Under the pieces are notes generated by a model, which searched no databases, was not told where the DNA came from, and was given only the letters and a program-made list of their open reading frames with translations. From assembly GCF_026341125.1 (NCBI RefSeq), contig NZ_JAPEOR010000002.1, positions 2,969,001 to 3,033,000 on the forward strand: a DNA stretch of 64,000 bases. Reading direction: 5' to 3'. Shown piece after piece: positions 15,806-35,401 of the stretch (its first letter is position 1; each line of letters begins with the position of its first letter). The DNA is from Streptomyces sp. NBC_01142 (GTDB lineage: Bacteria; Actinomycetota; Actinomycetes; Streptomycetales; Streptomycetaceae). A program made the translations under genes and the position numbers.

Positions 15806-15830
15806 CACAGACCACCGACAGTACGACCGA

Positions 15831-15857
15831 GGGGCCCGCCTGGTGCGGGCCCCTTTT
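15831..15857 (+). terminator. Rho-independent terminator
   Basis: GGGGCCCGC pairs with GCGGGCCCC across a 5-nt loop and is followed by TTTT (15854-15857). It would end transcription from the head genes to the left, or modulate it before the scaffold gene. Confidence 0.75.
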
Positions 15858-15911
15858 GCATGCCCGAACGCGCCCGCCAGGAGCGGGCCTGACGCACCAG
15901 GAGTGCACCCC

Positions 15912-16673: not shown

Positions 16674-16690
16674 CCCCCAGGAGTACACCC

Positions 16691-17949: not shown

Positions 17950-17952
17950 CCG

Positions 17953-19430: not shown

Positions 19431-19441
19431 GAGGCCCCTGC

Positions 19442-20561: not shown

Positions 20562-20605
20562 TCAGCGCGACAACTCCATAACAACTGCATAGCCGGGGGT
20601 GCTCA

Positions 20606-22828
20606 ATGGCCCTCACCATCGGCGAGTTGGTCGGTTTCATCGACCTCGACGACTCCGGGGCACAGCGCGGAGTCGACCGGACCGAGGCCGCTCTCGTTGG
20701 TCTCCAGCGGGACGCCGACGGGCGACTCAGGGACCTGCGGGGCCGGTTCGTCGCCGCGGGCGCAGAGATGGGCGGCGCCCTCGGCGACGGCATCGGCGGG
20801 GGTGCCGAGGAAGCAGGGCGCGGCCTCGCCGGTATCGGCCCCCTGATCGGCGCGGCGGCGACGAGTGCGAAGCTGCTCGCCGGCGGCGCCGTGGTCGCGG
20901 CGGGCGCGCTCGCCGCCGTGCCGCTCGCCGTGATCGGCCTCGGCGCGAAGGTGCTCGCCGAAAACGAGCAGGTCAAGGGCGCGTTTACCGACCTGTCGGA
21001 GCACGTCAAGGGGCGAATGCAGGAACTCGCCGCCCCGCTGGTCGAGCCGTTCGTCAATGCGGCCGACCAGTTGGGCGGCATCTTCGACGGCCTCGCCCCG
21101 CAGATCGGCTCCCTGTTCGAGGGCGTCGCCCCGCTGGTCGAGCCGCTGGTCGAGGGGATCGGCGCCCTCGCCAAGGGCGCAATGCCCGGCCTGGTCGCCG
21201 CCGTCGAGGCCGCCGGGCCGGTCATCGACGCACTGTCGACCGGCCTCGGCGCGGTCGGCGACGGCCTCGGCGGTTTCTTCGAGGGCGTCGCAACCGGCGC
21301 GGGCGGCGCGGCTGAGGGACTGGGCGGCCTGCTCGGCGCGGTGGGCGAGATCCTGCCCGCGCTCGGCGGTCTGATCGGTGCCCTCGCCGAGGCCGGCGGG
21401 CCGGTCCTGTCCGCCCTCGCGGGCGCGCTGGGCCCGCTGGTGTCGTCCCTTGCGGACGCTCTCGGCCCCGCCCTCGCCTCGCTCGGCCCGCCGCTCGCGC
21501 GGCTGGTCACGGCACTCGGCGACGGCCTAGAGCCGATCGTCGACGCGCTCGGCCCGGTCCTCGCCGTCGCGGCGGACGCGTTCGGCGTCCTGATCGACGC
21601 CCTGTCGCCGATCCTGCCCGTCATCGGCGAGCTGGTCGCGTCACTGCTGCCGGCCCTCACACCACTGCTGACTGCGGTAGGCGACGTGATCGCCCAGGCC
21701 GCGCCGGTCGTCATGCTGCTGGTCAACGCCCTTGCGGGCGCCCTGCGGCCGATCATCGCCCAACTGCCGGGCCTGGTCGCTCCGTTCGCGACCGTCCTCG
21801 GCGATCTCGCGGAAACGGTCCTGCCGATCCTCGCCCGGCTGATCGTCGCCCTGTCGCCGGCGCTCGCCACCATCGGCGAGGCGTTCGGGCAAATCCTGGT
21901 CGCCCTCGCCCCGCTGCTGCCCGCCATCGGCGAGCTGCTGATCGGTGCCCTGAACGCCCTGATGCCGATCATCGAACCGTTGATCGGCCTGGTGGGACAG
22001 CTCGCGGGCATCCTCGCGAACGGCCTCGCCGCCGTGATCGAGCAAGTCGTCGTACCCATCATCGGCGCCATCGTCGCGCTGCTGTCTGGCGATTTCGGCA
22101 GGGCGTGGGAGCTGGCCAAGGGCGCAGTACAAGCGGCCGGCCGGCTGATCGGCGAGGCCGCGATCAAGATCGGCGAATTCGTCGGCGCGGGAGTCTCCGC
22201 CGCCGTCGACTGGATCAAGGGATTGCCCGGCCGCGCGTTCGACGCCCTCGCCCCTCTCTCTGGGCGTCTGCGTGACCGCGCGGTGTCGGCCCTGTCCAGT
22301 TTCAAAGACTCGATCGTCACCAAGGCCAGCGAGGCGATCGCGTGGGTGCGCGGCCTGCCCGGCCGGATCGGCTCGGCGATCGGCAACCTTGGAACCCTGC
22401 TGGTCGACAAGGGCAAGGATGTCGTTCGCGGCCTGTGGAACGGCATCAAATCCATGGGCAGTTGGCTGAGATCCACGCTCACCAGCTGGGCGAAGGATCT
22501 CGTACCGGGCCCGATTGCCAAGGCTCTTGGCATCGCCTCGCCCTCGCGCGTCATGGCACGCGAGGTGGGCCGGTGGATTCCCGCCGGTCTGGTCAAGGGC
22601 ATCGAAGGCGGCGCCGGCGCGGTGGATCGCACGATGCGCAATCTGGTGACCCCTCCCAACGTTCCGTCCCTCTCGCCCGCCCTCGCGGGCGCAGGCGCGT
22701 ACGGGAACCCGTTCACCGCCTCGGCGTCCGGCGCGACCGTCCACGTCGAGCACTGGCACGCCGCCGAGAACGGCACCCCCGACGACAACGCGAAGGCCCT
22801 CGCTTGGCTCGCGAAGGCAAGGGGGTGA
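20606..22828 (+). CDS. Tail tape measure protein
   Basis: The 740-residue protein sets tail length. Residues 1-75 form the amphipathic start (LVGFIDLDDSGAQRGVDRTE), residues about 75-120 are hydrophobic, and residues 135-480 consist of repeated Leu/Ile-Gly-x2-Ala-Pro helices with few charged residues. The C-terminal 200 residues contain KGLPGRAFDALAPLSGRLRD, a second GLPGRIGSAI repeat, and GIASPSRVMAREVGRWIPAG, the classic tape-measure SPSRV motif. It starts 45 bp after the chaperone stop. At this length a relatively short tail is predicted. Confidence 0.93.
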   Translation: MALTIGELVGFIDLDDSGAQRGVDRTEAALVGLQRDADGRLRDLRGRFVAAGAEMGGALGDGIGGGAEEAGRGLAGIGPLIGAAATSAKLLAGGAVVAAGALAAVPLAVIGLGAKVLAENEQVKGAFTDLSEHVKGRMQELAAPLVEPFVNAADQLGGIFDGLAPQIGSLFEGVAPLVEPLVEGIGALAKGAMPGLVAAVEAAGPVIDALSTGLGAVGDGLGGFFEGVATGAGGAAEGLGGLLGAVGEILPALGGLIGALAEAGGPVLSALAGALGPLVSSLADALGPALASLGPPLARLVTALGDGLEPIVDALGPVLAVAADAFGVLIDALSPILPVIGELVASLLPALTPLLTAVGDVIAQAAPVVMLLVNALAGALRPIIAQLPGLVAPFATVLGDLAETVLPILARLIVALSPALATIGEAFGQILVALAPLLPAIGELLIGALNALMPIIEPLIGLVGQLAGILANGLAAVIEQVVVPIIGAIVALLSGDFGRAWELAKGAVQAAGRLIGEAAIKIGEFVGAGVSAAVDWIKGLPGRAFDALAPLSGRLRDRAVSALSSFKDSIVTKASEAIAWVRGLPGRIGSAIGNLGTLLVDKGKDVVRGLWNGIKSMGSWLRSTLTSWAKDLVPGPIAKALGIASPSRVMAREVGRWIPAGLVKGIEGGAGAVDRTMRNLVTPPNVPSLSPALAGAGAYGNPFTASASGATVHVEHWHAAENGTPDDNAKALAWLAKARG

Positions 22829-22830
22829 CG

Positions 22831-23709
22831 ATGGTCGGCTCCCTGGTCACCCGCCCCGGGCAGGTGCAGTACGGCGAGTTGCTGCTCGGCGCGGGCACCC
22901 CGTACCGGTGGCGCGGTATCACCGGGTGGGAAGACCTGCCCGCCCTCGACTCCGGAACGGCCGTGCGCAGCGATGCGCACGGCGCGTTCCCCGGTGGCCT
23001 GCTCGCACAGGCCCGGACGATCGGCCTCGACGGCCTGGTCATCCGGGCCCCGCGGGCATCCGTCGGCGCGGTCGTCGGCGCCCTGAACGCCGGCACGGTG
23101 CCGGTCGAGGACGAGCGACCGTTCGTCGCGTGGCTCGACGACCGCGGGCCCCTGCTCGCGTACGCGCGAGCGACCCGTCGGGCCGTTCCGGCGACGCTCG
23201 GGTACCGGCTCGGTACCATCACGGGCGGCGCCCTTGAGTTCGTGGCGACCGACCCGCGCCGGTACGAACTCGCCGCCCGCGCCGCCTCCTCGATGCTGCC
23301 CGCGTCCGAGGCTGGACTGTCGTGGCCGCTGGCGTGGCCGCTGTCCTTCGGCGCGCCAGGCAGTACCGGAGCAGTCACGGCGGCGAACGTCGGCGACGCC
23401 GACACACATCCCGTGATCGAGTTCCGGGGGCCTGTCGTGCGCCCGTCCTTGACCAACATCGGCACGGGCGACGTACTCGAATACGACATCGCGCTCGCCG
23501 CCGACGACGTCCTCAGCATCGACACGGCTGCTGGGACGGTCGTCCTCAACCGCACCGCGTCGCGGATCTACACCGCGACCTCGCGCTCTGTGCCCGAGCA
23601 GACGTTCACTTTCCCGCCCGGCACATCGACCCTCCACTTTCGCGCGGCAACCGGGAGCAGCGATCCCGCAGCGTCCGCGACCGTGCGCTACCGCTCGGCC
23701 TACTGGTAA
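22831..23709 (+). CDS. Distal tail protein (Dit-like)
   Basis: The 292-residue protein is beta-rich. It has an N-terminal WEDLPALDSGTAVRSDAHGA segment, then LVIRAPRASVGAVVGALN and a galectin-like C-terminal half, as in siphoviral Dit hub proteins that join tube and baseplate. ATG 22831 has AAGGGGG six bases upstream; GTG 22825, overlapping the tape-measure stop, is an equally possible start two codons earlier. Gene order after the tape measure supports the call. Confidence 0.75.
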   Translation: MVGSLVTRPGQVQYGELLLGAGTPYRWRGITGWEDLPALDSGTAVRSDAHGAFPGGLLAQARTIGLDGLVIRAPRASVGAVVGALNAGTVPVEDERPFVAWLDDRGPLLAYARATRRAVPATLGYRLGTITGGALEFVATDPRRYELAARAASSMLPASEAGLSWPLAWPLSFGAPGSTGAVTAANVGDADTHPVIEFRGPVVRPSLTNIGTGDVLEYDIALAADDVLSIDTAAGTVVLNRTASRIYTATSRSVPEQTFTFPPGTSTLHFRAATGSSDPAASATVRYRSAYW

Positions 23710-23721
23710 GGAGACACGCCC

Positions 23722-24723
23722 GTGACCGTGCGTACCGCATGGCTTCTGCCGGAGGGACAGACCCGCGAAGACACCCGCCTCGCGCCCGTCGCCCCGATGA
23801 CGCCCGAGACAGAGACCCGCATCCGCGACGGAGTGCTCGCCGGCGGAAACCCGTTCGCCGCGACCGGAGCCGGCGCGATGGGCCTACAGATAGGTGTCGG
23901 GCGCGCCATGGTGCAGGGAACCGACGCGCAGGGCGCATACCCGATCGCCCTCGACGCACCCGTGACCGTCCAGTTCGCCGACGGCGACGCACAGTTCGGC
24001 CGCATCGACGCCGTCGCGCTGCGCGTCTACGACCAGCTGTTCGACACCAGCGGGCAGAACCTCGCCCGCGTCGAAATCGTCCCAGGTACCCCGTCAGCGA
24101 CCCCCGAGGCGCCGAACATGCCCTCTGCCACGCTGCGCCTGTGGGACGTGACGGTACCCGCGGGCGCGTCCGCGGGCGTGGGCGGTATCAACTGGGCCGC
24201 CGCCCTCGCCGACCGGCGCCGCTACACCGCGGCAGCCGGCGGCATCATCCCGCGCGGCTGGGGACTCGCATTCGATGGCGCCTACGACGGCCAGTACCGC
24301 GACAGCGGGGGCGTACTGGAACGCTGGTCGGGCCCGCTCGGCGCGTGGCAGACCTACCGCGCCCCGACCGAGACGCCACTCGTCACCACCACGGGGGCGA
24401 CCGCCTCGACCGGCTACTCGGTTACGTCCTTTCACGCCCGTCGTGTGCCCGGCGTTCAGTCATTCACTGTCGCCGTCCAGCGGACAGGAGCGACGATCAC
24501 CTCGCCCGCCGGCGGCAACATCGCCGATCAGCCGCTCGTCACCCTCCCGTCCGGGTGGCGCCCCCCGAGCGGGCACGACCTCGAACTCGCCGCATCCGAC
24601 GGATTCGGCGACGGAACGGCCTACCTGAACACCGCCGGACTGATCACCCTCCGCGTGTGGGTGCCGGCCGGAACGATCCAGACCGGCCGCACCATCCGCA
24701 TGTCCGGATGCTTCGTCACGTGA
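23722..24723 (+). CDS. Minor tail / baseplate protein
   Basis: The 333-residue product starts at GTG after AAGGAGACAC. Residues 1-150 (RTAWLLPEGQTREDTRLAPV, then NPFAATGAGAMGLQIGVGRA and VALRVYDQLFDTSGQNLARV) match actinophage minor tail proteins. The C-terminal half is beta-rich and ends in RTIRMSGCFVT, resembling a small receptor-binding or carbohydrate-binding head. It is a candidate for host recognition together with the 26679 fibre protein; which one binds the receptor is unknown. Confidence 0.65.
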   Translation: MTVRTAWLLPEGQTREDTRLAPVAPMTPETETRIRDGVLAGGNPFAATGAGAMGLQIGVGRAMVQGTDAQGAYPIALDAPVTVQFADGDAQFGRIDAVALRVYDQLFDTSGQNLARVEIVPGTPSATPEAPNMPSATLRLWDVTVPAGASAGVGGINWAAALADRRRYTAAAGGIIPRGWGLAFDGAYDGQYRDSGGVLERWSGPLGAWQTYRAPTETPLVTTTGATASTGYSVTSFHARRVPGVQSFTVAVQRTGATITSPAGGNIADQPLVTLPSGWRPPSGHDLELAASDGFGDGTAYLNTAGLITLRVWVPAGTIQTGRTIRMSGCFVT

Positions 24724-24729
24724 TCGGGG

Positions 24730-25830
24730 GTGAACGTGGCCACCCCCTACCGGGTCCTGTTCTGTGACCTGCGATCCGACCAGCTGCTCGACGCCCTGCC
24801 CGTACAGGGCGTCGCCCTTGACGACTACATCGGCAAGACAGGCCGGCTCACCGGCACCGTGCCGATCCCCAACCGCGCCATGGCCGAGCGGGCACGCCGG
24901 GCGATCCTGCCCGGCCGTACGGGCGTATGGGTCGAGCGGGGGCGCGAGCTGTGGTGGGGCGGTGTCCTGTGGACGCTCGCCCTCGCCTCGGACAGCCGCG
25001 GGCGCCTCGGCGCACAGATACAGGCCGGCGGGTGGGAGTCCTATCTCTACCGGCGCCTTTTGTTCGACACCCAGACCGCCGACGGCGTCGATCAATTCGA
25101 CATCGTGCGCGGCCTGGTCGACTACGCGCAGAACACCCGCGGCGGCGACATCGGCATCACATACGACACCGGCCTCGTCGGCGTACCGCGCGACCGCACG
25201 TTCACCCGCTACGACCTGAACAGCATCGGCGACCTGCTCGACGACCTCGCCGCAGTCGAGGACGGCTTCGAATGGCGCATCGCAAGCTTCCGCGACCGCG
25301 ACGGCCGCAGGGTCAAGCGGCTGCAACTGGGGCACCCCGTGATCCGTACCGGCGCATCCGACATCGTCCTCGACCATCCGGGGCCGGTCCTGTCCTACAC
25401 ATGGCCAATCGACGCGACCGCCAAGGCAAACGGGTGGCAGAGCCGCGGCGCGAGCATCAACAAGAACCAGGCCGTAGACAGCTACCCCCTGACCTCGCCG
25501 GTTCTGGTCGCCGAGGACGACATCGACGCCGGGTGGCCCCGCCTCGACGGATCGAGCGACTACACCACCGTTGAGCGACAGACGACCCTCGACGCGCACG
25601 CCCGCGCCGACTGGACCGCCGCCCGCAACCCGGTGACCATCCCAGAAATCACGGTCCTGCTCGGCGGGACCATCACGCCCGCCCTGCTCGGCGCCACGAT
25701 CCGAATCCGCATCCGCGACCTGTGGCACCCGACCGCCCTCGACGCCCGATACCGCGTCGTCGGCATGTCCGTCACCCCGCCCGAGCGCGGACGCCCCGAA
25801 ACCGCGCAGCTGTACTTGGAGGTCCCGTAA
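24730..25830 (+). CDS. Tail-associated baseplate protein
   Basis: The 366-residue protein starts near GTG 24730 (GTG 24736 is also possible) after CGGGG. It has an N-terminal [19 protein letters not shown] segment with [20 protein letters not shown], a [20 protein letters not shown] core and a C-terminal beta-domain. This organisation is typical of the Tal-like central baseplate component of actinophages. No lysozyme or peptidase motif is visible, so it is probably structural. Confidence 0.65.
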
Positions 25831-25832
25831 CC

Positions 25833-26570
25833 GTGCCGTACGTGCCACAGGACGTACTCGACCGCCTCGCCACCATCGAGCGCGAGATCAGGCAGCTTCG
25901 CGGGCGCGCACAGATGCGCCCCGCCCTTAACCAGGTGTTGAACGGCGACGTCGTGATCGGCGAGGGCGGGCAGCTGATCGCCAAGACCCCCGGCGGCATC
26001 CGGACGTTCGTCGTCGGGCAGACCCCGGAAGGCGACTGGGGTGTCGGCCTCGGCCGCGAAAACGGCACGGCCGCCCTTACCGTCGGCGACGACGTGAACA
26101 GCGGCAAAGCCCAAATGATCCGCATGTGGTCACGCGACACCACCGCGCCCGACCGGATCATCGTCATGGACGACGCCTATTCGGGCCGGTTCCTCGGCCG
26201 GCCGTCGATGCCGATCCCGATGCAATCGACCGCCGGACAGATGACCGCCAGCACGAACGACACGACCGCATGGACCGGCGCGACCAGGCTCATGAACCCG
26301 GTCCTCTATGCCGCATTCGAGACCTACACGCCCGCCGGCACCACGGCCGACGTGCGGTTCGAGGACAGCGACGGCGTGATCGAGTCGTGGGTCGCCAACA
26401 CCTCGAACGGCTGGACGCTACGGCAGATCACCAAGCCTGTCCGGCAGGACTTCATGAACCACGTCAACTACCGGCTGAAACACTCCGTACGGTCCGGCAA
26501 CGGCCCGATCCAAACGAACTGCCTCGGTGTCTACACCCGGAACACGTTCACGCCCTCGGAGGCCCCGTGA
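25833..26570 (+). CDS. Minor tail protein
   Basis: The 245-residue protein starts at GTG and has a short helical N-terminus (VLDRLATIEREIRQLRGRAQ), a beta-rich GDVVIGEGGQLIAKTPGGI stretch and a C-terminal beta domain. The N-terminal coiled coil followed by beta-helix-like strands fits a trimeric tail spike or fibre base. The stop overlaps the next gene (GTGA). No enzyme motif is visible. Confidence 0.6.
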   Translation: MPYVPQDVLDRLATIEREIRQLRGRAQMRPALNQVLNGDVVIGEGGQLIAKTPGGIRTFVVGQTPEGDWGVGLGRENGTAALTVGDDVNSGKAQMIRMWSRDTTAPDRIIVMDDAYSGRFLGRPSMPIPMQSTAGQMTASTNDTTAWTGATRLMNPVLYAAFETYTPAGTTADVRFEDSDGVIESWVANTSNGWTLRQITKPVRQDFMNHVNYRLKHSVRSGNGPIQTNCLGVYTRNTFTPSEAP

Positions 26571-26737
26571 CCACCCCGACCCCCGCCCCCGCTCCGGACT
26601 CCGCGAGCAGCGGCGTGATGCCCGAACCGGGCAACGACCCCAACCCCAGCGCCCCGCCGCCAATGGAGGACACCACCGATGCCGCTCCCCGAGGGAATAC
26701 CGACAGTCCGAGTAACGGGCCGGTTCCTGACGCCTGA
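26567..26737 (+). CDS. Short Pro-rich protein, hypothetical
   Basis: The 56-residue ORF is almost entirely Pro, Ser, Asp, Asn and Thr. It starts with GTG on the preceding stop and its 3' end overlaps the fibre gene by 59 bp in another frame. It may be a linker-like accessory or merely a leader that couples translation of the fibre gene. Confidence that a stable protein is made is low. Confidence 0.35.
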   Translation: MTTPTPAPAPDSASSGVMPEPGNDPNPSAPPPMEDTTDAAPRGNTDSPSNGPVPDA

Positions 26738-28124
26738 CGGAAAGCCCCTGACGGGCCAAGTCGTGTGGCGCGCGCCCGGCCTGGTCACGTTCGGTGCGTA
26801 CGACGTGATCCTCGGCGGGCCCGTCACCGCGCCGCTTGACGCCATGGGCGCGTTCGAGATCGTTCTACCGGCCACCAACGCCCCCGGGATGAACCCGAGC
26901 GGCTGGTCGTACACCGTCGCCGAACAGCTCGCAGGCGTGCCGGTCAACCGCGTCTATCAGATCCTCTTGCCCGCCGAGACGCCCGCGGTCGACCTCGCCG
27001 ACATTGCCCCGACCGATCCCTCAACGCCGAACTACGTTGCCGTACGCGGCGACAGCGCGTACGAGGTCGCCGTCAAGAACGGGTTTACCGGCACCGTCGC
27101 CCAGTGGCTCGCCTCGCTGGTCGGCCCGCAGGGCGTCAACGGCGACCAGGGAACGCCCGGTACGCCGGGCGTCGTCCAGTCCGTCAACGGGCAGTCCCTC
27201 GCCGCAGTCGTCCTCACCGCCGCCGACGTAGGCGCCGTGCCCGCCACCGCACCGGGCGCAGCGAACGGCGTCGCCCAGCTGGACGCATCCGGTAAGGTCC
27301 CGGCCGCGCAGCTCCCGGCATCGAGCGGGGGCGCCGTCGCGTCCGTCAACGGGTACACGGGCGCCGTCAACCTCACCGCCGCCGATGTGGGCGCCTCGGC
27401 GACCACCCACACCCACACAGCCGCGACTGTGGGCGCCCTCGCAACGACCGCCCGCAGCGCAGCGAACGGTGTCGCGTCCCTCGACGCCTCGACCAGGCTC
27501 CCCATCGCACAGATGCCGACCGCGGTCGCCAAGAACACATGGACCCCGCAGAGCCTCGGCTTTCAGGCGTGGTCGTGCGACCCAGCCCACGTCAGCAACC
27601 CGACGACGCTCAAGGCCGCCGTACTGCAACGCATCTACATGAGCGGGATCAACATCACGGAACCCACCCAGGTAAACCGCGTGGTGATCTTCGCTCGCGG
27701 GTGGGCCGGATCGACGGCTGTCCCCGCAGCCCGGTTCTATGCCGGGATCTACAACGAGAGCGGGTCACGCGTCGCCACATCCGGACTCGTGTCGAGCCTG
27801 CCAGCCGCCGGCCAGATCGCCGGAACCGCGCCCGGCGGGAACGACAACCACATCGGTGCCGTCCCGGTATCGCTCACGGCAACGGCCGACCTGCAACCAG
27901 GCCGGTACTGGGCTGCGTTCCTGCTGTCCGCCGGAAGTGCGACGGATTTCTACTACATGCACGTTCAGAACGAGAGCCCGAGCGCCCCGGCGAACTTCTT
28001 CCTTGGCACCGCCTTTCAGCGCGCATGGTGCCTCAACAGCCAGGCGTCACTGCCCGCAACCGTGAACCAGTCGACGGGCGAGGTCGGCCTCGACCCTGCC
28101 GTCATGGCCCTGGCCATGGTCTGA
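26679..28124 (+). CDS. Tail fibre protein with short collagen-like segment
   Basis: The 481-residue protein begins with a beta domain (VRVTGRFLTPDGKPLTGQVV). Then come YEVAVKNGFTGTVAQWLASL, a collagen-like GPQGVNGDQGTPGTPG, and two copies of a VNG-x-L/T...LTAADVGA repeat separated by AAxGVAxLDASGKVP-type units, all standard in siphoviral fibres. The C-terminal ~180 residues form a beta-rich head domain likely to contact the host surface. ATG 26679 lies inside the preceding ORF. It is the last tail gene before a terminator. Confidence 0.8.
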   Translation: MPLPEGIPTVRVTGRFLTPDGKPLTGQVVWRAPGLVTFGAYDVILGGPVTAPLDAMGAFEIVLPATNAPGMNPSGWSYTVAEQLAGVPVNRVYQILLPAETPAVDLADIAPTDPSTPNYVAVRGDSAYEVAVKNGFTGTVAQWLASLVGPQGVNGDQGTPGTPGVVQSVNGQSLAAVVLTAADVGAVPATAPGAANGVAQLDASGKVPAAQLPASSGGAVASVNGYTGAVNLTAADVGASATTHTHTAATVGALATTARSAANGVASLDASTRLPIAQMPTAVAKNTWTPQSLGFQAWSCDPAHVSNPTTLKAAVLQRIYMSGINITEPTQVNRVVIFARGWAGSTAVPAARFYAGIYNESGSRVATSGLVSSLPAAGQIAGTAPGGNDNHIGAVPVSLTATADLQPGRYWAAFLLSAGSATDFYYMHVQNESPSAPANFFLGTAFQRAWCLNSQASLPATVNQSTGEVGLDPAVMALAMV

Positions 28125-28140
28125 CGCTCCCACCTTCCGT

Positions 28141-28171
28141 ACGCCCCGGCACCGCGCTGCGGGCGTTTTTT
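28141..28171 (+). terminator. Rho-independent terminator after tail genes
   Basis: ACGCCC (28141-28146) pairs with GGGCGT (28161-28166), with additional CG pairing inside, followed by six T (28166-28171). It separates tail and lysis modules by 20 bp before the amidase start. Confidence 0.75.
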
Positions 28172-28191
28172 CATGTCTGGAGACAACCCCT

Positions 28192-29145
28192 ATGGCATCC
28201 CCCCTGTCCGCAACCGCGTTCCGCGACGCCATCAAGCGCGAAGGCGTGAGCGTCGTCGAGGTCGGTTCCTGGCCTACCCACAACCGCAACCACAAGGGCG
28301 CATGGGGCCCGCTGCACGGCGTGATGATCCACCACACCGTGAGCGAGGGCACCGCGCACAGCGTCGCTCTGTGCCGCAGCGGATACACCAAGTTGCCCGG
28401 CCCTCTGTGCCATGGCGTCATCGACAAGACCGGCACCGTGCACCTCGTCGGTTTCGGCCGCGCCAACCACGCCGGAAGCGGCGACGACGACGTACTCGAC
28501 GCCGTCATCGCCGAGCGGTCCCCGCTCCCCGTCGACAACGAACTCAACGCCGACGGCAACCGGTCGTTCTACGGGTTCGAGTGCATCAACCTGGGCGACA
28601 ACGCCGACCCGTGGCCCGAGGCTCAGGTCGAGGCCATCGCCCGCACCGCCGCCGGCATCTGCCGCGCGCACGGGTGGGGCGCCCATTCCGTGATCGGACA
28701 CTCGGAATGGCAGACCGGCAAGGTCGACCCCCGCGGCCCGATCGGCCACAAGGGCGGGCCCGCCCTCACCATGGACAAGATCAGGGCACGCGTCGCCCAG
28801 CTCCTCGACGACGACACCGCGCCGGCGCCGGGCAAGCCGACGCCGGGCAAGCCGCCGGCGAAGGTCGTCGCCCTCTCCCAGCTGATCGCCGCCGCCCGCC
28901 ACGACTCGGTTCAGGCCGGTACCCCCGTTTCGTACGCGGGCGCGCGCATCGTCGAGGACGCCCTCGCCGCCGAGGGACTGCTCGCCCGGAAGTACGTCGA
29001 TGGCCACTACGGCACGCAGACCAAGGCGGCGTACGCCGCGTGGCAGCGCCGATGCGGTTACTCCGGGGCCGCCGCCGACGGCATCCCGGGCCGCGCCTCG
29101 CTGGACGCCCTTGCCAAACGGCACGGGTTCGGCGTCGCCGCCTGA
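28192..29145 (+). CDS. Endolysin, N-acetylmuramoyl-L-alanine amidase with peptidoglycan-binding domain
   Basis: This enzyme cuts the amide bond between MurNAc and L-Ala to lyse the host. The Amidase_2/PGRP domain spans about 20-195, with zinc ligands H47 (MIHHTVSEG) and H170 and catalytic K177 in GHSEWQTGKVDP. A Pro/Lys-rich linker (205-215) leads to a PG-binding domain ending in GHYGTQTKAAYAAWQRRCGY and a helical terminus. The 317 residues are normal. There is no signal peptide, so release depends on the small membrane proteins downstream. Confidence 0.92.
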   Translation: MASPLSATAFRDAIKREGVSVVEVGSWPTHNRNHKGAWGPLHGVMIHHTVSEGTAHSVALCRSGYTKLPGPLCHGVIDKTGTVHLVGFGRANHAGSGDDDVLDAVIAERSPLPVDNELNADGNRSFYGFECINLGDNADPWPEAQVEAIARTAAGICRAHGWGAHSVIGHSEWQTGKVDPRGPIGHKGGPALTMDKIRARVAQLLDDDTAPAPGKPTPGKPPAKVVALSQLIAAARHDSVQAGTPVSYAGARIVEDALAAEGLLARKYVDGHYGTQTKAAYAAWQRRCGYSGAAADGIPGRASLDALAKRHGFGVAA

Positions 29146-29189
29146 TCAACCCCCGCCCGTACGTTCCTCACCCCACCGGAGAAATAGCC

Positions 29190-29426
29190 ATGGCACCCGC
29201 CAACAAGCGCACCATCCGCACCGTTCTGCAAGGCGTCATTGCGTTCACCGTCGCGCTCCCCGGCATCGTCGCCGCGTCCGGAGTGTCCGACTCCCTGCCC
29301 TGGGTCGCCAGCGGCCTCGCCGCCGCAGGTGGCCTCGCGCGCGTCATGGCCCTGCCCACCGTCGAGCAGCTGCTCGACCGCGTCGGCCTCGGCCTGGTCG
29401 ACGAGGAGAACGGCGGTAGCGCGTGA
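29190..29426 (+). CDS. Holin-like membrane protein
   Basis: The 78-residue protein has two hydrophobic stretches (about 10-30 and 36-54) and an acidic C-terminus (EENGGSA), which fits a class II holin forming membrane lesions that release the amidase. ATG 29190 follows CCGGAGAAATAGCC. It overlaps the next gene by 4 bp, so the two lysis membrane proteins are coupled. Confidence 0.75.
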   Translation: MAPANKRTIRTVLQGVIAFTVALPGIVAASGVSDSLPWVASGLAAAGGLARVMALPTVEQLLDRVGLGLVDEENGGSA

Positions 29427-29680
29427 CCCAGCCATCCCGGCCCGAGTCCGTCGCCGTCGAGCTGGAGAAGCTACGCGGCACGATGGCTGCGGGGTTCGCC
29501 CGCGTCGACGGATCGCTCGCCCTGCTCGTACAACGTGGCGACCAGACCGACCAGCAGCTCACCGACCACGACCAACGGCTCGACGCCCTCGAACGCTCCC
29601 GGTGGCCCCTGCCATCGGTCGCCGCCCTGGTCGGAGCTCTCGGCCTCACCCTGTCCCTTTGGCAGTTCGCCACCAAGTGA
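29423..29680 (+). CDS. Coiled-coil protein with C-terminal TM segment, lysis accessory
   Basis: The 85-residue protein has an N-terminal coiled coil (VAVELEKLRGTMAAGFARVD to TDHDQRLDALERSR) and one C-terminal TM helix (VAALVGALGLTLSLWQF). This is the XhlA-like design of haemolysin/holin partners. It is coupled to the holin by GTGA and is the last gene of the late operon. Confidence 0.7.
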   Translation: MTQPSRPESVAVELEKLRGTMAAGFARVDGSLALLVQRGDQTDQQLTDHDQRLDALERSRWPLPSVAALVGALGLTLSLWQFATK

Positions 29681-29687
29681 CACAGCA

Positions 29688-29727
29688 ACGCCCCCCGTAC
29701 GGCCCTGCGTGGCCGTACGGGGGGCGT
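29688..29727. terminator. 17-bp-stem bidirectional terminator
   Basis: ACGCCCCCCGTACGGCC pairs perfectly with GGCCGTACGGGGGGCGT across a 6-nt loop, between the convergent lysis operon and the XRE regulator gene. It should stop transcription from both sides. Confidence 0.8.
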
Positions 29728-29750
29728 CGTTGTGCTTTCAGGGTTCCCCG

Positions 29751-31100
29751 TCAGTTCTTCAATGCCGCCACCTTGCGGGCGCGGCCGGCCAGTTCTCGAA
29801 CCGGCCGGGCGTTCGTATGCCTCCGCAGCTGAGTGGTCATCATCTCGAAGTGGTCGTCACCACGAGCCGAAGAGACATGCTCGTATTCGTCCAGGAACCG
29901 CCCCCAGGAGTCGCAGGCGGCGTCGAGGTGTCCAAAGGCATACTGCCGCTGCGCCAACAACGCGTACGAGTGCACGCGCCCCTGACGCTCCACTTTCGGT
30001 TGCACCTTGATGGACTGCTGAAGTGCCTTGATGCTGCCAGGAAGATCTCGTTCTTCGTACAGCACATGGGAAACGTGGAACAGCCACGCTGTTTGATCGT
30101 ACCCACCGATCGCATCTCGCCGGCTGTCGGCTTTGGATAGTGCGGCCTCGGCCTCCCGCAGACGCCTGTGCGACAAGTGCCGATCGCCGACCATGCTCGC
30201 GGCGTGTGCCTGCTGCCCCCGCAGGAACGCCACGAGTCGAGGCCCTGCGGCGGGCGCCGCTTCCGCAGCCGAGTCAGCAAGCTCCAATGACTTCCGGCCG
30301 TAGCCCAGGTTGGACGCCTGCAAGCTCATGCCGCGCAGCGTCCGGCAGTAGGTCACGTGGTCTTGCGCCTCGTTCGCCAGCTTCAATGCCTTGACGTAGT
30401 AGGTCTGGCCAAGGCCGTGGGCTTTCTCGTACATGGCCATCCACCCCGTGAGGTACGTGAGGTCGGATGATGCGGCAAGCATGTCGAGGCGAACCCGTTC
30501 AGTCGCCTGTGCACGTAGCCAGGGGCCTACGGTATTGACAAGGAACGCGGCGGCCATGGGGCGGGCATGCCCCGCTCCGAGTTCGTCGAGGATGTCCGCG
30601 ATACGTTCCGTCATGGTGCGCACGGCCTGAACCTGCGAAGCACCGATACGAATCGTCTTCTTGCCGGGACTCACCGGCTGATCAGCAGCATGCACGGCGC
30701 CGGAGAAGCCGGGAACGGCCAGTGCCGCCGAGAACACGCCTGCGGCGAGCACGCCGCGACGGGATGGGTCCATATCCGCCCTTCCGAGGTCAATCAACTC
30801 CTCGACAGTGTCCGCCGGTTCAGACCTCAAGACAGACGGAGCGGGCGTCAGGCCAGCTTCGGCATGCGTGACCGGTCGACCAAGCTGCGCCGACAGCACC
30901 TCAACGATCAGCGCCCTGGCCTCGGCTTTCGGCTGCGCACCGGCAATCCAGTGCGAAACGGTGGATTGGCTGTAATGAAGATCCAATCCCGCCTGCACGC
31001 CGAGGCGATTCACGCGCTGCGCAAGCTGCGTCCGCGTCAATTTCGCCTGGTCAAGTAACCCCGCAAGCGCAGGGTTGGGTGTGCGCTTCTTCGTGGCCAT
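29751..31100 (-). CDS. XRE-family regulator with TPR-like domain, graspetide cluster
   Basis: The 449-residue protein has an N-terminal helix-turn-helix (LTRTQLAQRVNRLG to YSQSTVSHWIAGAQP, about 20-58), a variable linker containing MDPSRRGVLAAGVFSAALA, and a C-terminal region of about 270 residues made of repeated helix pairs (YYVKALKLANEAQDHVTYCR, LVAFLRGQQAHAASMVGD) of TPR type. Such proteins often sense a peptide or small molecule. It is transcribed divergently from the RiPP operon, and the shared 125-bp gap carries a candidate operator, so it probably controls that operon. It is not an obvious phage repressor (those are much shorter). Confidence 0.75.
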   Translation of the reverse strand: MATKKRTPNPALAGLLDQAKLTRTQLAQRVNRLGVQAGLDLHYSQSTVSHWIAGAQPKAEARALIVEVLSAQLGRPVTHAEAGLTPAPSVLRSEPADTVEELIDLGRADMDPSRRGVLAAGVFSAALAVPGFSGAVHAADQPVSPGKKTIRIGASQVQAVRTMTERIADILDELGAGHARPMAAAFLVNTVGPWLRAQATERVRLDMLAASSDLTYLTGWMAMYEKAHGLGQTYYVKALKLANEAQDHVTYCRTLRGMSLQASNLGYGRKSLELADSAAEAAPAAGPRLVAFLRGQQAHAASMVGDRHLSHRRLREAEAALSKADSRRDAIGGYDQTAWLFHVSHVLYEERDLPGSIKALQQSIKVQPKVERQGRVHSYALLAQRQYAFGHLDAACDSWGRFLDEYEHVSSARGDDHFEMMTTQLRRHTNARPVRELAGRARKVAALKN

Positions 31101-31165
31101 GCCTCATCTCCCGACGGCGTTCATGGCGTTCACGTTGTCACCAGCTTCCAACGGTACCCGCGGAG

Positions 31166-31183
31166 GGTGACCGCACGGTTACC
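31166..31183. promoter_or_regulatory. Candidate operator between XRE regulator and RiPP operon
   Basis: GGTGACC-GCAC-GGTTACC is an inverted repeat with one mismatch, with a further GGTACC 13 bp upstream. It lies between the two divergent starts and is the best symmetric site in the gap. Direct repeats of GGCGTTCA also occur near 31115-31130. Binding is inferred. Confidence 0.4.
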
Positions 31184-31225
31184 TCTTCACCGAACCCCGA
31201 AAGTTCTCGGCCTGAAAGGGGGCTG

Positions 31226-31615
31226 ATGGTGACCACAACCGAAAAGAAGGCAGTCGGCACGGCCACAGGGGCGCACAGCGCCAACGCCGAACCGCCCATC
31301 AACGTCGACGCCGTTCAAGAGGCGATCAGCAAAGCCAACACGATCTGGCTCGACGTGCCCCCGCGCCGCCAAGTCGACCAGCACACGCAAGAACTGACCG
31401 AGCACGCCCAGCGCTTGCTACGCGAGGACTACCCGGCAGGCGAGCAGAACAACCCGGTTGTGATCGCAGCGTTCCGCGCCCTGTACAAACTGCTCGACCT
31501 TGCCCACAGACCCACGCCGACCACGACCAACTACACGGCATGGATGTACACACGCAACCTCGCCAACGCCACTCACACGCTGCTCGACCTGCACCGCCGG
31601 TACCAGGTTCCGTGA
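31226..31615 (+). CDS. Conserved hypothetical protein of the graspetide cluster
   Basis: The 129-residue soluble helical protein contains NVDAVQEAISKANTIWLDVP, EHAQRLLREDYPAGEQNNPV and TNYTAWMYTRNLANATHTLL. No catalytic motif is visible. It starts at ATG 31226 (GTG 31229 is the next codon) after AAAGGGGG and is coupled by GTGA to the following membrane-protein gene. It is the first gene of the operon that leads to the precursor and modifying enzymes, so a regulatory or accessory role is likely; the actual function is unknown. Confidence 0.6.
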   Translation: MVTTTEKKAVGTATGAHSANAEPPINVDAVQEAISKANTIWLDVPPRRQVDQHTQELTEHAQRLLREDYPAGEQNNPVVIAAFRALYKLLDLAHRPTPTTTNYTAWMYTRNLANATHTLLDLHRRYQVP

Positions 31616-31731
31616 CCGCGCGACCGCCACGCCGCCTGTCACAGATCGGCGAAATCGTCATCACGACCGTCCTCGTCGCCCTGATCGTGACCGCCTTCGG
31701 CGCCGCTCTCTACAGCAGCGCCACCCCATAG
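31612..31731 (+). CDS. 39-aa single-TM protein
   Basis: The short protein has a basic N-terminus (RPPRRLSQIGE) and one TM helix (IVITTVLVALIVTAFGAALY, about 15-34). The GTG start sits on the preceding stop (GTGA), so translation is coupled. It may anchor the 31226 protein or help export; both ideas are inference. Confidence 0.55.
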   Translation: MTARPPRRLSQIGEIVITTVLVALIVTAFGAALYSSATP

Positions 31732-31836
31732 ACCCCCGTCGCGCGCTCTGCTGCGTCCGCCGAACGGCGAACGCGCAGGAAAATCGAGCGCGCGGCGGGA
31801 GCCCTGCACCACCCATCGCATTCCCTTGGAGGGAAC

Positions 31837-32058
31837 ATGACGACAACCACGATTCCGTTCGCCGCGCGTGCCGCGGCACCGCCCTGCCTAGTCACCACCT
31901 CAATCGCCGGGGTGACGTGGAACAGTGGCCGGCAGCTGAACGAGAACGCGGACGGCACCCCCTGGCACACGGGGGACATGGCCGCTTCGACCACCGACAC
32001 CAACCTCGACGGCCAGGGCGACGACGTCTCTGACCCGTACTACGCGCCCGCGTCATGA
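31837..32058 (+). CDS. tgmA: Graspetide precursor peptide (TgmA-like)
   Basis: The 73-residue peptide matches putative ATP-grasp-modified RiPP precursors. The leader carries the recognition-like segment WNSGRQLNENADGTPW (residues 28-43), and the core is rich in Thr/Ser and Asp/Glu (ASTTDTNLDGQGDDVSD, from residue 50), which supply alcohol donors and acid acceptors for side-chain ester links. It ends PYYAPAS. A good ribosome binding site (GGAGGGAAC) precedes the ATG. The stop overlaps the ATP-grasp ligase start. The Asp residues before Gly or Val are also possible aspartimide sites for the methyltransferase. Confidence 0.85.
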   Translation: MTTTTIPFAARAAAPPCLVTTSIAGVTWNSGRQLNENADGTPWHTGDMAASTTDTNLDGQGDDVSDPYYAPAS

Positions 32059-33035
32059 CAAGCGCCGCCCGCCCTGTGCTCATCGTCGCTGAACAGCTCG
32101 ATGCGGCTGCCGACATGGTCGTCGACCAGCTGAACCAGCGCGACATTCCCGTCATACGGTTCGACGCCGCCGTGTTCCCCCAACAACTCACGCTCACAGC
32201 CGGCCACGGGTCGACCGAGCTGGGATGGACCGGGGTACTGGACGACGGGCACCGGACGGCGCGGCTTGAAGACGTCCGGGCCGTCTACTGGAGGCGGCCC
32301 GGACGCTCCGCCATCGCCGACACCGTCCCCGAGCCATATGCGACGTGGGCCCAGAACCAGGCTGACGCCGCCCTACTCAACCTGTTAGCAGCCCTCCCGG
32401 GTGTCCGATGGATCAACAACCCTCATCACGACCGGATCGCCGCCCACAAGCCCCAGCAGCTCACCACCGCAACGCACTGCGGACTGAGGGTGCCACGCAG
32501 CCTCATCACGAACGACCCCAAGGCCGCCCAAGCATTCGCAAAGCAGATCGACGCCCCGATCATCTGCAAGCCCATCCTCGGCGGGCGCCTCCCTGTCGAA
32601 GAAGGTCGCTCCCTGATGGTGGCCACGCACTACGTCAATGCCAAGGAGTTCGACGACAGCATCCGCACCACCGCCCACTACTTCCAGGAAGCCATCGACA
32701 AGGCATACGAGGTACGCCTCGTAGCCGTGGGCGATCAGGTGTTCGGCGGCACCCTGCACACCACGTCGGAACGCGCGCGTACCGACTGGCGCACGGACTA
32801 CAAACACATCGAGTACGGCACCACGTCCGTTCCCGACCACATCATCTACGGCGTACGGCGCTTCCTGGCTTACTACGGGATCGTGTTCGGGTCGTTCGAC
32901 TTCGCCGTGACTCCTGATGACGAGTGGGTGTTCTTCGAGAACAACCCCGCCGGCACATGGGCATGGGTGGAGAACCGAACCGGCCTGCCGATCGCCGCTG
33001 CCCATGCCGACTACCTGCAAGGAGACACCGAATGA
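32055..33035 (+). CDS. tgmB: ATP-grasp graspetide maturase (TgmB-like)
   Basis: The enzyme uses ATP to activate acidic side chains of the precursor and join them to Thr/Ser (ester) or Lys (amide). The 326 residues fit the family. The N-terminal domain includes VLIVAEQLDAAADMVVDQL and VRAVYWRRPGRS. The ATP-grasp core shows PGVRWINNPHHDRIAAHKPQ, IICKPILGG and the end EWVFFENNPAGTWAWVENRT, containing the metal-binding Glu-x-Asn-Pro. It overlaps the precursor by 4 bp and the methyltransferase by 4 bp, so the three are one coupled unit. Confidence 0.9.
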   Translation: MTSAARPVLIVAEQLDAAADMVVDQLNQRDIPVIRFDAAVFPQQLTLTAGHGSTELGWTGVLDDGHRTARLEDVRAVYWRRPGRSAIADTVPEPYATWAQNQADAALLNLLAALPGVRWINNPHHDRIAAHKPQQLTTATHCGLRVPRSLITNDPKAAQAFAKQIDAPIICKPILGGRLPVEEGRSLMVATHYVNAKEFDDSIRTTAHYFQEAIDKAYEVRLVAVGDQVFGGTLHTTSERARTDWRTDYKHIEYGTTSVPDHIIYGVRRFLAYYGIVFGSFDFAVTPDDEWVFFENNPAGTWAWVENRTGLPIAAAHADYLQGDTE

Positions 33036-34120
33036 CTTGGCCGGACACCGGAGTGTCGGCCGCGCTGCGGCAAACGTTCGCCGCGGAACTCGACCCACAG
33101 TTCGACAGAGGGTGGGTAGACGCGTTCGCGGCCGTCCCCCGGCACGTATTCGTCCCCCGCTACTACGCCCAGTCTGACGACAGGTCGTGGCGGAGTGTCA
33201 CCTTGGGTGACCCGGGCTACATGGAAACGATCTACTCGAACCAGGCACTGACCACCCAGCTTGACGAACACGGCATCCCCACCAGTTCGTCAAGCGAACC
33301 CGCCCTCATGCTGGAAATGCTCGACGCCCTCGACGCTCACCAAGGCGACACGGTGTTCGAACTCGGGACGGGCACCGGCTACAACACGGCGCTGCTCTCG
33401 CACCGGCTCGGCGACGACAACGTGACAAGTATCGATGTCGACCCGAGCCTCGTGGAAGCTGCGGCCTTCCGGCTGGAAAAGGCCGGGTACCGCCCCTTCG
33501 TGACGACCGGCGACGGCGCCCGCGGCTGGCCGCAGCGCTCCCCCTACACCCGGATCATCGCCACCGCCGCGCTGCGTGCCGTGCCGGCCCCATTCCTCGA
33601 CCAGGCCGCACCTGGCGCGATCATCGTCGCCCCCATCGGGTACGGCGTACTACGTGCCACCATCACCGCCCCCGGCCACGCCACGGGCAGGTTCCTGCCG
33701 ACACCCGCGCACTTCATGCCTCGCCGGACGCCCGGCGCTGCCCCTGCGTTCGACGCGGTGCGTAGCGTGGAACCAACGGATACCAAGGTGGCGCCAACCG
33801 ACGTCCTCGACCGCCTGCGCTTTCCCCTGTCGATCGCCTTGCCCGGCCACAGCTCGTGCTCGTGGCGGGACGATGACGGCGAACTCACGGCCGTTGGCCT
33901 GTGGACCGAGGACGGCTCAACAGCAACCGCCCACGTCTCCGGCTCCGTCCGCCAGATCGGGCCACGGCGCCTGTGGGATGTCGTGGAAGACCTTGCCATC
34001 TTCGAGAACGTGCCGCATCGCGATGACTTCCACATGACCATCACGCCCAGTCGGCAAACCGTCTGGTACAACGCGCCCGACGGGCCTTCATGGGAACTGC
34101 CCGGAGGAGACGGCCCATGA
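33032..34120 (+). CDS. PCMT-type methyltransferase of graspetide system (TgmC-like)
   Basis: The 362-residue protein has a protein-L-isoaspartate methyltransferase core (about 25-225): HVFVPRYYAQSDDRSW, then SAM-binding VFELGTGTGYNTALLS (108-123), SIDVDPSLVEAAAFRLEKAG and APIGYGVLRATI. The C-terminal ~130 residues form an extra domain typical of methyltransferases linked to ATP-grasp RiPPs. In characterised relatives (fuscimiditide and imiditide pathways), methylation of an Asp side chain leads to a stable aspartimide, which is the likely role here. The start ATG overlaps the ligase stop. Confidence 0.85.
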   Translation: MTWPDTGVSAALRQTFAAELDPQFDRGWVDAFAAVPRHVFVPRYYAQSDDRSWRSVTLGDPGYMETIYSNQALTTQLDEHGIPTSSSSEPALMLEMLDALDAHQGDTVFELGTGTGYNTALLSHRLGDDNVTSIDVDPSLVEAAAFRLEKAGYRPFVTTGDGARGWPQRSPYTRIIATAALRAVPAPFLDQAAPGAIIVAPIGYGVLRATITAPGHATGRFLPTPAHFMPRRTPGAAPAFDAVRSVEPTDTKVAPTDVLDRLRFPLSIALPGHSSCSWRDDDGELTAVGLWTEDGSTATAHVSGSVRQIGPRRLWDVVEDLAIFENVPHRDDFHMTITPSRQTVWYNAPDGPSWELPGGDGP

Positions 34121-34206
34121 TCACCATGCTCGGCACCATCGCCGCGTTATGCGGCGCGGCAACGGCTTACTACACCCTCACTCACAACCGAGGCCGCTCA
34201 CGATGA
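34117..34206 (+). CDS. 29-aa membrane microprotein A
   Basis: The ORF encodes MITMLGTIAALCGAATAY followed by a short hydrophilic end (THNRGRSR). It starts on the methyltransferase stop (ATGA) and its stop overlaps the next microORF (ATGA), an arrangement strongly suggesting translation. A single short TM helix is predicted. Possible roles include export or self-protection; unproven. Confidence 0.5.
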   Translation: MITMLGTIAALCGAATAYYTLTHNRGRSR

Positions 34207-34292
34207 GACAACGCCTCTTCTGCCTCGTGATGATCATCAGTTCGGTCGCTGTGGTGCTGCCTCTGGCCATCCTCGGCGATCCCGGCCGCTGA
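34203..34292 (+). CDS. 29-aa membrane microprotein B
   Basis: The ORF encodes MRQRLFCLVMIISSVAVVLP followed by LAILGDPGR, a basic start and one hydrophobic helix with a terminal RQRLFC positively charged cap. It is coupled to microprotein A by a 4-bp overlap and is the last gene before two strong hairpins. It could also be read as a very short signal peptide-like sequence. Function unknown. Confidence 0.45.
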   Translation: MRQRLFCLVMIISSVAVVLPLAILGDPGR

Positions 34293-34314
34293 ACCCCGGC
34301 CCCGCACGAGCCGG

Positions 34315-34401
34315 CCGCGCCGCCCTCGTTCCCCCACCGGGCGGCGCGGTCTCCTGCCCACGACGGCCCCGGTTCCTCCCACAGGAGGGGCCGGGGCCGT
34401 C
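34315..34401 (+). terminator. Tandem strong hairpins ending the prophage operon
   Basis: First stem 34315-34325/34339-34349 (CCGCGCCGCCC with GGGCGGCGCGG); second stem 34362-34372/34391-34401 (GACGGCCCCGG with CCGGGGCCGTC) containing an inner CCTCC/GGAGG stem. Two terminators in a row at the prophage edge would insulate host genes. Confidence 0.75.
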
Positions 34402-34430
34402 TGTCTGCCCTAACGCCGCAAAACCCCAGG

Positions 34431-34679
34431 TCACACCGAGAGTGTTTTACCCACGTTGCTGCACATGAGGGTGGCGACGCGCTGGTCGCCGTCGATTCCG
34501 AGTTCGTCCCGCAGGGCGTTGGCCAGCTGGGTCGCCCGCGCACCCACCTCCGCGAAGGTGCGGCGCTGCGGCTCGGCTTCCCCTGTCCAGGTAGTGATCT
34601 GTGACTTACCGTGGATCGTCATCCCGTGGTGAAGGATGCGGGTCACAGTCAGCGGTACGTCCTGCATGGTGCTCAGCAC
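34431..34679 (-). pseudogene. Acyl-CoA synthetase, 5' fragment cut by prophage insertion
   Basis: The fragment encodes MLSTMQDVPLTVTRILHHGM, TTWTGEAEPQRRTFAEVG and DELGIDGDQRVATLM, the start of a long-chain fatty-acid CoA ligase (family length about 540). After about 75 residues it runs into phage DNA and stops. The AMP-binding core should lie beyond the left end of the prophage. While integrated, the prophage inactivates this gene; precise excision would restore it. Confidence 0.8.
34440..34490. other. Right prophage attachment junction (attR or attL)
   Basis: On the reverse strand the acyl-CoA synthetase reading frame is intact up to ATL-M at about 34,467 and then departs from the family (which normally continues W-N-N-A-E) into CSNVGKTLSV and a stop. 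The change falls at about 34,461-34,467 (GCACATG). This places the crossover in a coding gene, as is common for serine integrases of Streptomyces phages. The exact core cannot be fixed without the left junction. Confidence 0.65.
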
Positions 34680-34828: not shown

Positions 34829-35401
34829 TCAGCGGACCGGCGAAAGCTCCGGGTCCTCGCGGAGCTTGCCGAGCGCCCGCGATACCGCGCTCTTGACCGT
34901 GCCGATCGAGACGCCGAGCACCTCGGCCGTCTGGGCCTCGCTCAGATCCTCGTAGTAGCGAAGGACGACCATCGCCCGCTGCCGGTCCGGCAGCTTCATC
35001 ACGGCGCGCCACATGGCGTCGTGCAGAACCTGCTGTTCGGCCGGGTCGGTCTCGGGCACGGCCTCCCGCTCGGGCAGCTCGTCGCAGGCGAACTCGTCCA
35101 CCTTGCGCTTGCGCCACTGTGAGGTGCGGGTGTTCAGCAGTGCGCGGCGGACATAGCCGTCGAGCGCCCGGTGGTCCTCGATCCGCTCCCACGCGACGTA
35201 GGTCTTGGTGAGCGCGGTCTGCAGCAGGTCCTCGGCATCGCTCGGGTTCGCGGTGAGCGAGCGGGCGGTACGCAGCAGTACGGGCCCCCGCGCCCGTACG
35301 TACGAGGAGAACGACGAGTAGGTCGCACTGCGCGTCTGGGGCGCGTACGACGGCACCGGCGCGGCGGGCTTGGAAGCGCTTGTGCAGACTGGCGTGGTCA
35401 T
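34829..35401 (-). CDS. ECF sigma factor, SigE family
   Basis: The 190-residue protein directs RNA polymerase to a small regulon. Region 2 covers about 28-95 (SYVRARGPVLLRTARSLTAN, DAEDLLQTALTKTYVAWERI, YVRRALLNTRTSQWRKRK), and region 4 covers about 130-185 (VMKLPDRQRAMVVLRYYEDL, SEAQTAEVLGVSIGTVKSAV). An N-terminal Ser/Thr/Pro-rich extension of about 27 residues precedes region 2. No anti-sigma gene is adjacent. The sigma gene is followed by the acyl-CoA synthetase gene in the same direction, but a palindrome and 149-bp gap separate them. Confidence 0.9.
   Translation of the reverse strand: MTTPVCTSASKPAAPVPSYAPQTRSATYSSFSSYVRARGPVLLRTARSLTANPSDAEDLLQTALTKTYVAWERIEDHRALDGYVRRALLNTRTSQWRKRKVDEFACDELPEREAVPETDPAEQQVLHDAMWRAVMKLPDRQRAMVVLRYYEDLSEAQTAEVLGVSIGTVKSAVSRALGKLREDPELSPVR

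Follow-up and report, generated by a model that had tools for sequence, protein, structure and literature searches.

The window analysed here, 64,000 nucleotides of Streptomyces sp. NBC_01142 (C2:2969001–3033000 of a 10.1-Mb assembly), contains the right-hand 34.5 kb of a prophage, and between the lysis genes of this prophage and its right attachment site (attR) lies a cluster of eight genes for a predicted graspetide, a ribosomally synthesised and post-translationally modified peptide (RiPP). The cluster is probably a lysogenic-conversion module (moron) in the cargo slot of a temperate Streptomyces phage; its position, the families of its genes, its conservation and its recurrence were observed directly. 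The genes named by an earlier note on this DNA were all found where it had placed them; recurrence as phage cargo is a result added to that note.

Boundaries of the prophage and its cargo slot

Features of the prophage and its right flank (window positions, strand):
1..34466, prophage, right-hand 34.5 kb, with structural genes in left-to-right orientation; PHROGs matches and both junctions
28192..29145, +, endolysin; phrog_880, 242 bits
29190–29426 and 29423–29680, +, two small holin-region genes; phrog_4316 and phrog_5225, both of unknown function
34454..34466, attR crossover region; likeliest core CACAT/ATGTG at 34462–34466
34431–34679, −, fadD 5′ fragment; host part approximately 34462–34679, cut by the prophage
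34829..35401, −, sigma-factor-like host gene of the right flank; the same neighbour adjoins the empty site of the relative G005; "sigma factor" is our own reading

The prophage is approximately 40.9 kb long (C2:2962559–3003466) and both of its junctions were located. It splits the host gene fadD (acyl-CoA ligase); a second copy of the fadD start (70% identical) was found 6.2 kb before the window, fused to the remaining fadD to give a product of 568 aa. The phage supplies its own fadD 5′ end, and the host gene is therefore restored at the left attachment site (attL) as a hybrid. The left junction, which the earlier note had left to be found, lies near C2:2962560, beside the gene of a 539-aa serine integrase (phrog_95). 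ATGTG is common to both junctions (window 34462–34466; C2:2962559–2962563); a second 5-base identity, CGTTG/CAACG, was seen at 34454–34458, three bases away, and the att core is most likely ATGTG rather than CAACG, since the next base at attR differs from that at attL. In G005 an intact fadD comes directly after the sigma-factor-like gene found here next to attR, and both prophage flanks map by blastn to one continuous locus in six of six relatives; one integration event, as the earlier note had supposed, accounts for both fadD halves. A second attachment site between 29.7 and 31.1 kb, which by the same note would have assigned the RiPP genes to other DNA, did not appear: over 29.5–34.7 kb no open reading frame (ORF) reads by eye as an integrase, and no direct repeat of at least 16 nt exceeds 88% identity. 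An attachment site in a tRNA gene was discarded (the sole tRNA of the window is at 46.0 kb, far from both junctions), as was an origin from phage R4, suggested by the fadD site through a link of R4 with an acyl-CoA synthetase gene; a term search of the R4 paper PMC5000831 did not show this gene named.

Terminase, portal, head, tape measure, tail and endolysin were all matched by PHROGs. At the lysis end the DNA has matches in 44 phage records, every one a Streptomyces phage, best the SV1/Raleigh group (Picardvirus, Raleighvirus); homologous structural, lysis and integrase genes were found in conserved order, including the endolysin, the holin-region genes, the serine integrase and a regulator in the slot. 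The two genes at 29190–29680, read by us as the holin region, are the last before the slot and are conserved in SV1 and in the sister prophages. The lysis-to-integrase interval of SV1, Darolandstone, Raleigh, ToastyFinz, SoJo and Picard holds 1–2 backward regulatory and 2–4 forward genes. Unlike the window prophage, in which the graspetide cluster fills this interval between the lysis genes and attR, these six references carry regulators, hypothetical genes or (Picard) a tRNA-synthetase-like gene, and no annotated graspetide gene was found in their slots. Picard gp28–29 (L042:4193–5664) are annotated as a tRNA synthetase and an RNA-binding protein.

The integrase of this prophage was matched at E ≤ 1e-150 in 9 of 392 genomes, its own included, and seven of the eight others were examined (G139 was left out). 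Three of them (G351, G019 and G266) have a prophage integrated into this fadD gene, the sigma-like gene and the fadD fragment lying next to it; the slot cargo is an NsdA-family regulator with an ATPase-like gene (G351), a DUF397/helix-turn-helix (HTH) pair (G019) or an HTH-like region with other ORFs (G266). No tgmB, the graspetide synthetase gene, was present within the 20 kb read in these three, nor in G382 and G180. Since the three prophages share the holin-region genes and the fadD fragment around other cargo, the DNA from the holin region to attR is a phage cargo slot and not host DNA. The cluster thus lies within the inserted DNA, as had been claimed from the fadD fragment outside it, and is absent from three sister prophages at the same site, which is what is expected of a moron.

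The graspetide genes and their predicted product

Features of the cluster (window positions, strand):
29681..29734, hairpin after the lysis genes; 24-nt arms, 92% complementary
29751..31100, −, NsdA-family HTH/tetratricopeptide-repeat regulator, divergent from the cluster; NF053720, 397 bits (cut-off 75)
31226..31615, +, DUF6415-like helper or regulatory gene; PF19979 below cut-off (22.8 vs 27.5 bits, upstream extension included in the scan)
31612..31731, +, 39-aa membrane-type peptide with one strongly hydrophobic stretch; GTGA overlap
31837..32058, +, precursor peptide, 73 aa; core residues 49–73 at 31981–32055
32055..33035, +, TgmB, ATP-grasp graspetide synthetase; TIGR04187, 365 bits (cut-off 350)
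33032..34120, +, PIMT-type O-methyltransferase with C-terminal extension (TgmM/PAMT); PF01135, 100 bits (cut-off 20.3)
34117..34206, +, 29-aa peptide 1, weakly hydrophobic; ATGA overlap
34203..34292, +, 29-aa peptide 2, strongly hydrophobic; ATGA overlap
34362..34401, hairpin after the cluster; 18-nt arms, 89% complementary

Class membership: by its families, the enzyme pair is that of the group-13 graspetides ("graspimiditides"). An MvdD/TgmB-type ligase (also PF21068, 45 bits, cut-off 27; relatives in PDB include AMdnB and CdnC) stands beside a precursor that is conserved among relatives and overlaps tgmB by 4 nt, and it is joined by a PIMT homologue whose C-terminal part, beyond the PIMT domain, is conserved across 10 aligned sequences, that of the window included. 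Precursor, ATP-grasp ligase, PIMT homologue, a Thr/Asp-rich core and Asp-Gly in the predicted loop are shared with fuscimiditide, amycolimiditide, albusimiditide and SsfA(BM) (PMC13001092). Unlike these known members the cluster is phage-borne, and two further differences count against the assignment: the precursor lies outside TIGR04186 (GRASP_targ) and gave no NCBIfam or Pfam match whatever at E ≤ 1, and the methyltransferase scored 298 bits against TIGR04188, below the cut-off of 380. Among the phage clusters described below L061 passes that cut-off (440) and L115 fails it (318). The only match of the precursor to solved structures (E 1.9) was rejected as not credible. The gene content suggests a complete pathway to a cross-linked peptide.

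Precursor core: the comparison comprised 16 sequences (the window and 15 orthologues; near-copies L008 and L012, the distant L033 and L034 and the precursors of L068–L073 were left out). Orthologues are 64–80% identical and lie just upstream of tgmB in related loci. Seventeen of the 25 residues of the C-terminal core are invariant, and at 16 of these 17 more than one synonymous codon is used; the pairwise ratio of replacement to synonymous codon differences is 0.36 in the core vs 1.32 in residues 1–48. By these codon comparisons the core is under purifying selection. S51, T53, T55, D58, D62, D63 and D66 are invariant and also present in L033 and L034; Asp58-Gly59 is likewise invariant and is replaced by Asp-Ser in the two distant precursors, Ser being among the possible residues after the methylated Asp (PMC13001092).

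Predicted product: each of the four characterised graspimiditides forms a stem-loop, with esters between Thr and Asp and with the methylated Asp in the loop (PMC13001092). Within the conserved core AASTTDTNLDGQGDDVSDPYY, TgmB would link side chains of Ser/Thr and Asp; the simplest ring map, as we infer it, would have three nested esters, T55-D62, T53-D63 and S51-D66. The methyltransferase would then esterify the loop residue Asp58, which would close to an aspartimide with Gly59. This predicted chemistry is very likely right in kind and less surely so in detail.

Small genes: of the six pairs of neighbouring forward genes, five overlap by four bases (GTGA or ATGA), evidence that the small ORFs are genuine. 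The best 15-residue hydropathy mean was 2.81 for the 39-aa peptide, 1.86 for 29-aa peptide 1 and 2.97 for 29-aa peptide 2; both microproteins of the earlier note are thus present, with strong hydrophobic character in the second and weak in the first. The 39-aa peptide belongs to no NCBIfam or Pfam family. A peptide like 29-aa peptide 2 occurs at the same position only in phage L005 among 15 loci scanned, and it had no match in isolated phages; the DUF6415-like gene also has a relative (39%) in L005.

Regulator: NsdA is a host regulator of antibiotic production. The divergent NsdA-family protein would control the operon independently of the lytic genes. Its relatives were found in 8 phage records; NsdA-family regulators such as SoJo gp25 (L041:1486–2835), that of G351 (L103:11059–12408) and Ponzi gp1 (L037:283–1629) lie in the cargo slot or near the integrase.

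Related clusters on phages, plasmids and chromosomes

The search for the cluster in relatives with and without phage, proposed in the earlier note, found orthologues on chromosomes and plasmids and, besides the window, at three phage loci. When viral contigs were searched by alignment, seven TgmB loci emerged: two close ones (64–81% identical) and L060–L064 at 36–41%. Close relatives in the same range were found at 12 of 13 TgmB loci on GTDB contigs (the remaining one is distant) and in 4 of 77 plasmid records (identity is below 60% in the remaining 73). TgmB was matched at E ≤ 1e-100 in 10 of 392 genomes of the genus, its own included (two at merely 50–52%), and at E ≤ 1e-140 by alignment in 11 of 394 genomes of the family; the two samples overlap. 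The 67-kb viral contig L005, with a minor tail gene near its cluster, shares the regulator (67%), the DUF6415-like gene, precursor, TgmB, methyltransferase and the peptide like 29-aa peptide 2; in L006 and L016 (S. ardesiacus) a phage portal gene follows shortly downstream. Also in S. ardesiacus, a single open frame of 5,495 codons (L058:3453–19940) lies downstream of the phage portal gene. Genome G308 has two copies of the close cluster (C1:29717–30688 and 10293801–10294772), near the ends of a 10.3-Mb single-contig assembly. tgmB appears broken in L008 (S. jietaisiensis plasmid; matches in two frames) and in L062 (in-frame stop); intact relatives exist. The host itself (G000) has two further tgmB genes outside the prophage and of other lineages (C2:1226317–1227240 and C3:517463–518371; L082, L083).

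In the tgmB tree the window falls in a starred set of nine TgmB rows, together with L005, L006, L016, two plasmids and three loci whose setting is different or unknown. Across the full tree seven changes of the phage label are required, not all of which need be gains (two ambiguous rows excluded).

More distant clusters on viral contigs: in L061 and L062 the cluster is bracketed by lysis genes and an integrase gene, of serine type in L061 and of tyrosine type in L062; in L064 lysis genes are followed by the cluster and the contig ends before any integrase. The cluster of L060 stands beside head-tail genes and that of L063 after a tail fibre at the contig end. GRASP_targ precursors were found in L060, L061 and L063.

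Linkage in genomes: 81 Streptomyces genomes gave 112 TIGR04187 matches above cut-off, in 56 genomes, and 33 tape-measure (PF10145) matches above cut-off, in 26 genomes (one gene split over two rows; the tape measure of the window prophage is absent from these matches). At 4 of the 33 tape-measure loci tgmB lies 12.6–17.1 kb downstream on the same strand, and no other pair occurs within 40 kb; under uniform placement 0.06 is expected (Poisson P 6e-7). In G078 endolysin, cluster and phrog_95 serine integrase are followed by host-like genes (UPF0102), and in G046 endolysin, cluster and phrog_1 tyrosine integrase likewise (alpha/beta hydrolase); as integrase and then host-like genes come beyond the cluster, it lies inside the prophage in both. 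The other two loci were not accepted as slot examples. G075 has a pterin-dehydratase gene (PF01329) between lysis genes and cluster and a LacI-type regulator after the cluster (LacI-type regulators can also occur in phages); in G036 the cluster proved to lie beyond the fadD junction, on the host side, once the junctions had been mapped. At its fadD site G036:C1:1–76000 (L077–L081) has two pieces of fadD and two copies, 99% identical and 39 kb apart, of a phage stretch of approximately 24.8 kb; the interval from fadD to the sigma-like gene holds a graspetide cluster different from that of the window. G300 (L115) has endolysin, then tgmB and methyltransferase, then a HAD hydrolase and a GDT1-type gene; its att site is unmapped. 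In G004 a TIGR04188-like methyltransferase is present and its contig has no tgmB; this graspetide-type gene (L107:1987–3168) stands beside holin-region genes, with a small Gly/Ser-rich ORF with a GKHG motif just upstream.

A graspetide cluster thus occupies the lysis-to-integrase/att slot at seven loci: the window, L061, L062, L064, L074 (G078), L076 (G046) and L115 (G300); the phages concerned carry two integrase types. The six other than the window are canonical graspimiditide clusters, like it in slot and enzyme pair, and differ from it in TgmB (35–41% identical to that of the window; L061, L062, L064 and L115 compared) and, in L061, in a GRASP_targ precursor.

Function of the module and competing explanations

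Several results weigh against a module kept for the benefit of phage carriage. Streptomyces chromosomes often carry tgmB (above cut-off in 56 of 81 genomes), and most orthologues of the window cluster were not seen on phages; phage-labelled rows of the tgmB tree group together no more than chance allows when set against the other labelled groups (162 of 500 shuffles as low). By these three results any benefit might not be specific to phages. Two of the four linked loci (G075, G036) have no demonstrated position inside a prophage, and for the two clean ones alone the Poisson P is 0.0018. Five of seven sister prophages are without a graspetide-type gene in the stretch read. With two TgmB queries tblastn over 50,697 phage records (E ≤ 1e-5) gave no Streptomyces tgmB relative in isolated phages, and a library of defence genes gave only a partial similarity of the methyltransferase (mads_2). 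The sole tblastn matches, the same for both queries, were distant MvdD/TgmB-like ATP-grasp genes (26–32%) in a Leptospira phage (KF114876, 59120–60061) and a human faecal phage (MT835913, 8836–9777).

Within the moron reading, the peptide may work within the lysogenic cell to the advantage of prophage and host together, superinfecting phage being one possible target; this is a tentative proposal, by analogy, and stops short of an even chance. Intracellular action is suggested because no export gene was seen and because intracellular lanthipeptides protect Streptomyces from phage, according to a review (PMC12360287). A broader claim, that graspimiditides are standard cargo of temperate Streptomyces phages, their synthetase lineages captured repeatedly and acting as superinfection defence in lysogens, is rather unlikely.

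The product might instead be exported or released as a bacteriocin against non-lysogens, for which we would give about one chance in a few. The precedent is sublancin: its cluster, a complete RiPP pathway on the Bacillus prophage SPbeta, lets SPbeta lysogens release a peptide that inhibits SPbeta-free strains (PMC10516654), and phage-encoded clusters are rare and mostly in temperate phages, by a 2021 survey cited in PMC10452541. Sublancin, however, is a released antibacterial glycocin, and chemistry, host and regulation differ; moreover no transporter, protease or obvious immunity gene was seen among the eight genes of the module, the three small peptides being the sole candidates for export or immunity.

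It is improbable that the cluster is a neutral hitch-hiker, one of many graspetide clusters picked up by phages through chance. The 112 TIGR04187 matches and the scattered phage label, with its seven changes, are what such chance would give; purifying selection on the precursor core, the use of one slot by phages with different integrases and the four linked tape-measure loci speak against it. Hardly different in probability, and marginally lower, is the explanation in which the regulator is the selected part, tuning how the host develops and makes secondary metabolites, with replaceable peptide genes carried along behind it. NsdA-family regulators do occupy the slot in SoJo, G351 and the window prophage, one begins the Ponzi genome, and no tgmB was found in the annotated slot of SoJo, the stretch of G351 read or two stretches of Ponzi; but the peptide core is conserved, and another HTH protein precedes the cluster in L061, L064 and L074. 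Assignment of the RiPP genes to the host, or to a second element merely bordering the prophage, was ruled out, to within a very small residual doubt, by the junctions with the fadD fragment outside the cluster, the empty site in G005, the three sister prophages with other cargo in the same holin-to-fadD interval and the search for integrases and repeats, even if the host-side cluster of G036 means that such neighbourhoods exist.

Literature: among the papers searched only PMC11118758 (ocean prokaryotes) and PMC11048544 (review) mention both graspetides and prophages. No report of a phage-borne graspetide was found among the titles and abstract openings listed, which leaves absence unproven, most subscription papers lying outside that search; words starting with "phage" are absent from the main texts of PMC13001092, PMC13097080 and PMC10787088, a check that does not cover "bacteriophage" or "prophage". 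Linking aspartimide-type graspetides to function is called the bigger challenge in a 2026 review (PMC13001092).

With this finding graspetides join the RiPP classes known from prophages, and the stretch between lysis and integrase genes in Streptomyces phages becomes worth searching for peptide clusters. No biological role has been established for aspartimide-type graspetides, and their recurrence as cargo of temperate phages points to a role in lysogens; superinfection defence, if true, would give a function to a RiPP class that has been without one.

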